Shown one piece after another: positions 8,509 through 11,626 of a stretch of 64,000 nucleotides of DNA. The translations under genes were made by a program, and so were the position numbers. Source of the stretch: Cryptosporangium aurantiacum (lineage in GTDB: Bacteria; Actinomycetota; Actinomycetes; Mycobacteriales; Cryptosporangiaceae). How positions within the stretch are numbered: position 1 is the stretch's first letter; the number at the start of each line of letters is the position of its first letter. The stretch spans positions 1 through 64,000 of the forward strand of contig NZ_FRCS01000004.1 in assembly GCF_900143005.1 (NCBI RefSeq). The letters run 5' to 3'. The notes beneath the pieces are model-generated. The model saw nothing but the letters and a program-made list of their open reading frames with translations, was not told where the DNA came from and did no database searches.

Positions 8509-9963
<1,455 letters not shown>

Positions 9964-10065: not shown

Positions 10066-10085
10066 GCGGCGCGACTCCACGAGCA
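10066..10085. promoter_or_regulatory. stem-loop in the leader of the cytochrome b gene
   Basis: GTCGCGC (10066-10072) pairs with GCGCGAC (10079-10085), ending just before the ribosome site of the cytochrome b gene. A further inverted repeat, GTCAC...GTGAC, lies near 10013-10029. Either could regulate the gene or end transcription from the monooxygenase gene. Confidence 0.35.
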
Positions 10086-10096
10086 GGAGTTCGGGC

Positions 10097-11626
10097 ATGA
10101 ACGAACATTCCCACGGCCCCGGCCGGTCCGCGGCGACCCGGGCCGTTCCACCGTTGCGCGCCGTGCTCAACAGGGTCTTCCCCGACCACTGGTCGTTCCT
10201 GCTGGGTCAGATCGCGCTGTACTCGTTCGTCGTGTTACTCGTCAGCGGCACGTTCCTCGCGTTGTTCTTCGAGCCGTCGATGGAGGAGGCCGTGTACGAC
10301 GGGTCGTACACGCGGCTGCAGGGAACGACGATGTCCGAGGCCTACGCCTCGACGGTGGACCTCTCGTTCGAGGTTCGCGGTGGTCTGTTCATGCGTCAGC
10401 TGCACCACTGGGCGGCGATGCTGTTCATGGCGTCGATCGTGGTGTACCTGCTGCGGGTCTTCTTCACCGGCGCGTTCCGCAAGCCACGGAAGGCGCAGTG
10501 GGTGATCAGCCTGCTGTTGTTCTGGACCGGCCTGGTCGCCAGCTACACCGGCTACATGGTGCTGGACGACGGCATGTCCGCTTCCGGTATGCGGATCCTG
10601 TCGGCGATCCTCATGTCGGTGCCCGTGGTCGGCTCGTGGCTGGCGATGTCGGTCTTCGGCGGCGAGTACCCGGGCGAGGTGATCATCGGTCGCCTGTACC
10701 TCCTGCACCTACTGACGCCGGTGCTGATGATCGGTCTGGCAGCCGTCGGCGCGGTACTGCGGCTCCGGCAGAAGCCCGCCCAGTGGCCGGGTGCGCACCG
10801 CAGCAGCACGAACGTCGTGGGTCAGCGCGCCTTTCCGCAGTACGCGGCGAAGCAGACCGGTCTGTTCCTGGGCGTCTCCGCCGTGCTCGCGTTGCTGGGT
10901 GGCCTGTTCCAGATCAACCCGATCTGGCTCTACGGACCGTCGCACGCGGCGGTCGCGGCCGCGTTGTCGCAGCCGGCCTGGTACGTCATGTTCCTCGACG
11001 GTGCGGTCCGGCTGATGCCGCCCTGGGAGGTCACGATCCCGATCGGTGACGGGTACGCCGTCCCGCCGCTGTTCTGGGCGGCGGTGGTGCTGCCCACGAT
11101 CCTGGTCGTCCTGCCGATCGCCTACCCGTTCATCGAGGCGCGTGTGCGGCGGGATCGCCGTGAGCATCACCTGCTCGAGCGTCCCCGGGACGCGCCGGCC
11201 CGCACGGCGTCGGGGGCCATGGCCGTCACGTTCTACCTCGTGCTGACGCTCGCCGGTGCCGGTGACGTCCTCGCCCTGACGTTCCACATCAGCGCGAACG
11301 CGGTCACCTGGGCCGGTCGGATCGGGCTGGTCCTCCTGCCTGCGGTGGCGTACTGGATCACCTACCGCATCTGTCTGGGGCTGCAGCAGCACGACCGGGA
11401 GGTCCTGGCACGCGGCGTGGAGACGGGCATCATCCGGCGCCTGCCGGACGGTGGTTTCACGGAGATCCACCAGCCGCTCGCGCAGCCCGACGACCAGGGT
11501 CGTAGTGCGTTGCCGTACGCCGGCTCGGCGGTGCCGAAAAAGCTGAACCACCTCCGTGTGCTCGAGGCCGTGGAACCAGCGAGCCCCTCCACACCCCTCG
11601 ATCGAGGGGTACGACGGCCGGTGTAA
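10097..11626 (+). CDS. orphan QcrB-like cytochrome b with missing haem-ligand positions
   Basis: 509 residues from ATG 10097 with AGGAG upstream. It follows actinobacterial QcrB over its length: FPDHWSFLLGQIALYSF, MRQLHHWAAMLFMASIVV, RVFFTGAFRKPRKAQW, GEVIIGRLYLLHLLTP, NVVGQRAFPQYA, eight or more membrane segments, and a C-terminal cytoplasmic tail. Helix B keeps His103 but has Tyr117 where the second haem His is expected. Helix D keeps His204 but has Gly218/Ala219 at the second site. The quinol-site PDWY/PEWY motif is PAWY (293-296). No QcrA/QcrC or oxidase genes adjoin. It probably binds at most one haem and is unlikely to run a normal Q-cycle. Confidence 0.82.
   Translation: MNEHSHGPGRSAATRAVPPLRAVLNRVFPDHWSFLLGQIALYSFVVLLVSGTFLALFFEPSMEEAVYDGSYTRLQGTTMSEAYASTVDLSFEVRGGLFMRQLHHWAAMLFMASIVVYLLRVFFTGAFRKPRKAQWVISLLLFWTGLVASYTGYMVLDDGMSASGMRILSAILMSVPVVGSWLAMSVFGGEYPGEVIIGRLYLLHLLTPVLMIGLAAVGAVLRLRQKPAQWPGAHRSSTNVVGQRAFPQYAAKQTGLFLGVSAVLALLGGLFQINPIWLYGPSHAAVAAALSQPAWYVMFLDGAVRLMPPWEVTIPIGDGYAVPPLFWAAVVLPTILVVLPIAYPFIEARVRRDRREHHLLERPRDAPARTASGAMAVTFYLVLTLAGAGDVLALTFHISANAVTWAGRIGLVLLPAVAYWITYRICLGLQQHDREVLARGVETGIIRRLPDGGFTEIHQPLAQPDDQGRSALPYAGSAVPKKLNHLRVLEAVEPASPSTPLDRGVRRPV

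Follow-up and report, generated by a model that had tools for sequence, protein, structure and literature searches.

A QcrB paralogue in Cryptosporangium aurantiacum

Within the window, by which we mean the whole 64-kb stretch of C. aurantiacum DNA analysed here, an open reading frame without internal stop codons runs from 10097 to 11626 on the plus strand and encodes a protein of 509 aa. The product scores 625 bits against the NCBIfam profile bc1_QcrB_actin (NF050120, cut-off 500) and matches Corynebacterium glutamicum QcrB (7q21) in phmmer at 1e-162. Its fold, predicted by AlphaFold with an input of 60 sequences, has a pLDDT of 84.1 (53.6 when only 11 sequences were supplied) and a TM score of 0.84 to 7q21_B. 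Together with its position in the tree, where it nests among the QcrBs of Micromonosporaceae, these data identify the paralogue as a full-length QcrB. No Rfam element was found near the gene. The features of the locus are given below, where "clade" refers to the protein and its five orthologues described in a later section, and "others" to a comparison set of 122 ligand-complete QcrBs from Micromonosporaceae, Geodermatophilaceae, Nocardia, Streptomyces and Cryptosporangium.

10085-10089, plus strand: Shine-Dalgarno-like AGGAG, 7 nt upstream of the ATG at 10097 (sequence)
10097-11626, plus strand, stop included: QcrB paralogue of 509 aa, predicted to lack haem bH (translation, NF050120, AlphaFold)
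10403-10408, plus strand: His103, the helix-B bL ligand, kept, followed by His104; invariant in 60/60 rows of alignment A3
10445-10447, plus strand: Tyr117 at the position of the helix-B bH ligand; Y in 6/6 of the clade, H in 122/122 others
10562-10564, plus strand: Leu156 for the Pro of the Qo-side motif GYSLPDD (here GYMVLDD); L or M in the clade, P in 122/122 others
10706-10708, plus strand: His204, the helix-D bL ligand, kept; invariant in the 60 aligned sequences
10748-10753, plus strand: Gly218/Ala219 at the position of the helix-D bH ligand; G/L/Q/Q/L/L in the clade, H in 122/122 others
10775-10777, plus strand: Pro227 for an invariant His, turning QKHTQ into QKPAQ where TMH4 ends on the N side, from the comparison of near-invariant positions
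10973-10984, plus strand: PAWY (P293-A294-W295-Y296) for the Qo motif PDWY/PEWY, Asp294 to Ala; A in 6/6 of the clade, D in 122/122 others

Predicted loss of one haem site

In cytochrome b, haem bL is held by the first histidine of helix B and the first of helix D, while the second pair holds bH. The paralogue has both bL ligands and neither of the two bH ligands. A ligand histidine shifted along its helix was ruled out, since TMH2 and TMH4 of the paralogue hold no further histidine able to serve as one; TMH4 carries a one-residue deletion in both clade members from Cryptosporangium. With both bH ligands gone and both bL ligands present, the expected product is a one-haem protein rather than one with two damaged haems. 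Judged by its ligands, exactly one haem site, bH, is erased, as opposed to one ligand of each haem, and the paralogue very probably binds bL only.

An earlier note on this DNA had listed His103, His204, Tyr117, Gly218/Ala219 and PAWY in an intact gene, and translation and a residue check agree with it throughout. Its claim that the second haem-ligand positions are missing holds as far as absence goes, with the correction that the missing residues are both ligands of a single haem, whereas "haem-poor", in the sense of damage to both haems, is not supported. The note had named two observations that would speak against it, a shifted ligand histidine and the same residues in a functional bc1 complex. 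The former was not seen, and the latter residues are absent from the QcrBs found beside qcrA/qcrC. The proposed one-haem protein with a changed role fits the ligand counts, as well as the conservation of the clade and the purifying selection described below.

Both quinone-site regions are altered. In Mycobacterium tuberculosis QcrB, QP lies close to bL and QN close to bH (PMC8616580). The acidic residue of the Qo motif is lost in all six clade members; a PEWY-acid mutant, E295V, nevertheless keeps reduced Qo activity (PMC10583091), and PAWY alone is thus no proof of a dead Qo site. Tyr153 of the Qp pocket, to which the Qo inhibitor stigmatellin is bonded in C. glutamicum QcrB (PMC8795186), is retained in the paralogue, as is Arg120.

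Distribution and phylogeny

The search, by profile and by pattern, took in approximately 1,030 genomes of actinobacteria: 399 sampled from the order, 395 sampled from the class, and 355 from Micromonosporaceae. The Tyr117/PAWY protein was found in six of them, two from Cryptosporangium and 4/355 from Micromonosporaceae. One of the three other Cryptosporangium genomes carries it, at 82% identity to the C. aurantiacum copy; the Dactylosporangium fulvum orthologue is 70% identical, those from three further Micromonosporaceae of different genera are 68-73% identical, and the clade-wide range of identity is 68-85%. A codon-pattern sweep, which targeted bH-ligand codons not starting with C and so misses C-initial codons such as those for Gln, returned 1/395 class genomes (C. 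aurantiacum) and 5/355 Micromonosporaceae, namely the four clade members and one Actinoplanes.

All six proteins have Tyr117 and Ala294, have lost Pro156 and lack a ligand at 218; Met154 and Leu146 are likewise fixed across the genera. The suggestion that a Tyr/Gly/Ala set might define a clade is thus upheld for Tyr117, to which PAWY can be added, but not for 218/219, where the residues vary.

In a tree built with the trait columns removed, the clade has 100/100 support and nests within Micromonosporaceae QcrBs, away from the canonical QcrB of Cryptosporangium. Grouping it with the latter is disfavoured, although the AU test (p=0.056) falls short of rejection. Because this result speaks against vertical descent, the gene is likely to have reached Cryptosporangium by transfer from Micromonosporaceae. 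A viral origin was rejected, as viral contigs hold no relatives, and every plasmid-borne QcrB is less than 60% identical to the paralogue.

Selection and pattern of change

Ninety-seven positions are at least 98% conserved in the 122 ligand-complete QcrBs, and eight of them are changed in 6/6 clade members: K26R, L49V, H117Y, N134, P156 (of LPDD), H218, H227 and D294A (of PDWY). That both bH ligands are among just 8/97 such positions is more than chance would give. Identity to Micromonospora-type canonical QcrB drops to 43% in TMH3 and 44% in TMH4, compared with 56-91% elsewhere, and TMH4 is 56% conserved within the clade vs 90% in Micromonospora-type QcrBs. In the Qo loop, TMH6-8 and the C-terminus, similarity does not fall below that seen between ordinary QcrBs of different families, as would be expected for partner-facing regions if partner contacts were retained. 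The frame is intact in all six genomes and within-clade dN/dS is 0.09-0.18 (YN00), which speaks against a pseudogene; the paralogue value is above that of the canonical pair (0.10 vs 0.04). At the level of sequence, the clade shows focused remodelling under purifying selection and not general decay.

A second loss in Actinoplanes

A graded series of orphan QcrBs was found in Actinoplanes, with H218L in L163, H218S in L116/L025, H117D and H218S in L162, and H117Q, R120F and H218S in L127. All of these carry H227P, so that the invariant histidine has been lost in parallel with the clade, and all keep PDWY, LPDD and the bL ligands. Their closest relatives, L114 and L117, are orphans too and have complete ligands, and the order of loss was helix-D histidine first and helix-B histidine afterwards. 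K26, L49, H218 and H227 are changed in both lineages, along with E38 and N134 in some members, and the Actinoplanes lineage is also under purifying selection. A single origin of bH loss with the clade was rejected by the AU test, at p=0.0004 with four Actinoplanes sequences and p=0.038 with two. Going by these alignments and trees, the bH site has been dismantled twice independently, in Actinoplanes in a stepwise manner. Loss of a bL ligand was not seen among the QcrBs examined.

Genomic context

The earlier note saw no QcrA/QcrC neighbour, and by tblastn this extends to the whole window, in which no match to either protein was detected; none was present at the other five clade loci. The paralogue is therefore not encoded with qcrC and qcrA. 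A canonical C. aurantiacum QcrB with all four ligands adjoins qcrC-qcrA on a different contig, and at least one ligand-complete QcrB is likewise present in 6/6 clade genomes. The clade gene is thus an orphan, a lone qcrB outside the qcr-cta cluster of a genome that also holds a canonical copy. In the assembly of one Cryptosporangium clade genome (G002; L006/L007, contig 68) the canonical qcrB is frameshifted at about residue 380.

No conserved partner gene was found, and the neighbours of the six clade genes belong to unrelated families. In C. aurantiacum these are an upstream flavoprotein resembling rifampin monooxygenase (Rox) and an amidohydrolase. At the other loci they are an NAD-binding/hydrolase fusion with an M24 peptidase, a SpoIIE-type phosphatase with CopCD, a cellulase with a glycosyltransferase, an acyltransferase, and a DUF4062 protein with a P450; in one clade genome a P450 gene begins 18 bp downstream of the paralogue. 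Since the neighbours all differ, a partner, if there is one, would be encoded elsewhere. The Rox-like gene lies at 8545-9963 on the plus strand behind a TetR gene, and its product, at 788.8 bits, falls short of the NCBIfam cut-off of 800.

Ligand-complete orphan QcrBs are frequent in Micromonosporaceae and Streptomyces. A QcrA remnant upstream, which would be a trace of operon duplication, was not found in the clade. In another orphan qcrB (L098:4187-5908) the open reading frame opens with what is left of the C-terminal end of QcrA, which shows that it arose by partial qcrCAB duplication. At three further loci (L106, L111 and L118) orphan QcrB genes adjoin a common gene of approximately 560-600 aa, and L111 and L118 also have a short membrane-protein gene resembling one near the canonical cta genes; these three loci look like an alternative oxidase cluster. 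Many Micromonosporaceae carry a second, deeply divergent qcrCAB-like operon (e.g., L089, L105, L120, L121 and L122), whose QcrB is 43-47% identical and has all ligands. Lastly, a very divergent QcrB paralogue of Actinomadura rupiterrae (L029:9980-11398) has Gln in place of the helix-B bH histidine and a helix-D histidine displaced by one. An NRPS gene of three modules, ending in a thioesterase, precedes it by 78 bp, and the paralogue is possibly a self-resistance or tailoring gene of that cluster.

Discussion

The paralogue resembles canonical bcc-aa3 QcrB (7q21, 7e1v; NF050120) in its full-length homology and fold, its bL ligands, Tyr153 and its N- and C-terminal parts, and differs from it in lacking the bH ligands, the Asp of PDWY, the Pro of LPDD, the invariant His227 and qcrCA neighbours. 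Most likely it is conserved across several genera for a different, perhaps regulatory, role. We tentatively favour a neofunctionalised one-haem (bL) QcrB that would serve bcc-aa3 in trans, whether as an alternative subunit or as a throttled or regulatory one, and could not run a Q-cycle alone, a reading to which we give somewhat less than even weight. Its structural part is well supported by the sequence comparisons, and the functional part is what we infer from them. Without bH and with an altered Qn side, an electron on bL would have no path to an N-side quinone, and hence the paralogue by itself should be unable to complete the Q-cycle. By analogy with the orphan QcrB3 of Streptomyces spores, it might join the bcc-aa3 supercomplex in trans, partnered by QcrA/QcrC or by canonical QcrB, for example in a dimer with one dead half when flux is low or during development. 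The focal remodelling, the conserved partner-contact regions and the coexistence of a ligand-complete QcrB in each clade genome all argue for such an in-trans subunit; on the other side, the neighbours identify no partner, and the conserved loops could serve a different one. On balance, the conservation pattern favours a Q-cycle-incapable subunit within, or docking to, the bcc complex.

Three systems offer comparisons. The orphan QcrB2 and QcrB3 of S. coelicolor (SCO7120 and SCO7236) are likewise encoded off the qcr-cta cluster beside an intact canonical complex, and QcrB3 was recovered together with the bcc-aa3 supercomplex and Nar1 on purification (PMC7931247). By analogy, this precedent suggests a possible bcc-aa3 association of the paralogue. 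Unlike the paralogue, the Streptomyces orphan QcrBs that we examined, among which SCO7236 was not identified, keep the four ligands, LPDD and PDWY. The H212N bH knockout of Rhodobacter capsulatus (PMC4330944, PMC4807273) also lacks bH through ligand loss and keeps bL. In an R. capsulatus bc1 mutant lacking both hemes bH, reduction attributed to heme bL persists, while those phases of the complete cycle that are sensitive to antimycin are absent (PMC4330944). H212N is, however, a point mutant made in the laboratory, and its complex is otherwise active, whereas the paralogue has changed both ligands and further near-invariant positions, in nature, and has been kept by selection. The third system is the Actinoplanes lineage, which consists of orphans that have lost bH ligands, replaced His227 by Pro and kept bL, but arose independently and retains PDWY and LPDD, with only the bH/Qn side dismantled.

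The main rival is that the protein has left complex III and works as a stand-alone one-haem b-type membrane cytochrome in quinone or redox sensing or in electron delivery, with its partner encoded elsewhere. We regard this as unlikely, though it accounts for an orphan gene without qcrA/qcrC whose neighbours are unrelated in every genome, and for altered quinone-site regions next to an intact bL site. The P450 gene at 18 bp and the Rox-like flavoprotein gene in the window could be read in the same sense, but neither linkage is common to the clade, and the earlier proposal of electron transfer to a nearby flavoenzyme is not supported, the Rox-like gene being absent beside the paralogue in the other five genomes. 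Against a stand-alone function, the complex-facing C-terminal half, the Qo loop and the C-terminus match canonical QcrB in their degree of conservation, which would not be required of a protein outside the complex. Simple decay is less likely than this, and we consider it improbable that the gene is a pseudogene in the making that lost bH by drift. The unconserved neighbours, the loosened TMH4 and the raised dN/dS are what a decaying duplicate might show; against this stand the intact frames, dN/dS values clearly below 1, the residues fixed across genera (Tyr117, Ala294, Met154 and Leu146), and the fact that the same haem was lost twice and bL never.

We see a slimmer chance still that the paralogue acts as a decoy or confers tolerance, offering an additional Qo/Qp site to which respiratory inhibitors produced by neighbouring actinobacteria bind, or that it is a self-resistance copy. 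The Qp site of QcrB is the suggested target of reported inhibitors such as Q203 and TB47 (PMC8616580), the A. rupiterrae paralogue follows an NRPS gene, and the C. aurantiacum gene follows one that is near the cut-off for a rifampin monooxygenase. Yet a copy incapable of turnover does not substitute for the target, resistance paralogues normally retain catalysis, and an NRPS adjoins only the distant Actinomadura copy, none being seen among the clade flanking genes examined. The least probable reading of all, which would surprise us greatly, is a normal QcrB with two haems, bH being ligated by Tyr117 and one more residue. Tyrosine is a haem-iron ligand in some proteins, and Arg120 is kept. His-Lys ligation of bH works in R. 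capsulatus H212K (PMC4807273). The helix-D position, however, offers no common ligand (G, L, Q, Q, L, L), and the clade has lost N134 and H227 as well.

Returning to the in-trans subunit that we favour, a further and rather doubtful extension is that bH-less QcrB is a natural pseudo-subunit of complex III, pairing with normal QcrB or with QcrA/QcrC in trans to give a CIII2 with half or none of its activity, and the cell would tune the Q-cycle by swapping in the one-haem subunit; such a form would have arisen at least twice, bH being lost step by step and bL never.

Electrons pass between the two quinone sites of cytochrome bc complexes by way of the stacked pair of b haems. Removal of bH was previously known mainly from laboratory mutants, and our search of the open-access literature found no natural bH-less QcrB; the clade represents a loss fixed in nature. 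The curated HMM scores these genes as ordinary QcrB even though half of the haem ligands are missing, which calls for caution in annotation. The case for a naturally bH-less cytochrome b, with a convergent second example, as a real and new form of QcrB is strong on sequence, and the clade and the graded Actinoplanes intermediates make it possible to ask which functions remain to cytochrome b when there is no Q-cycle, and whether pseudo-subunits regulate complex III.
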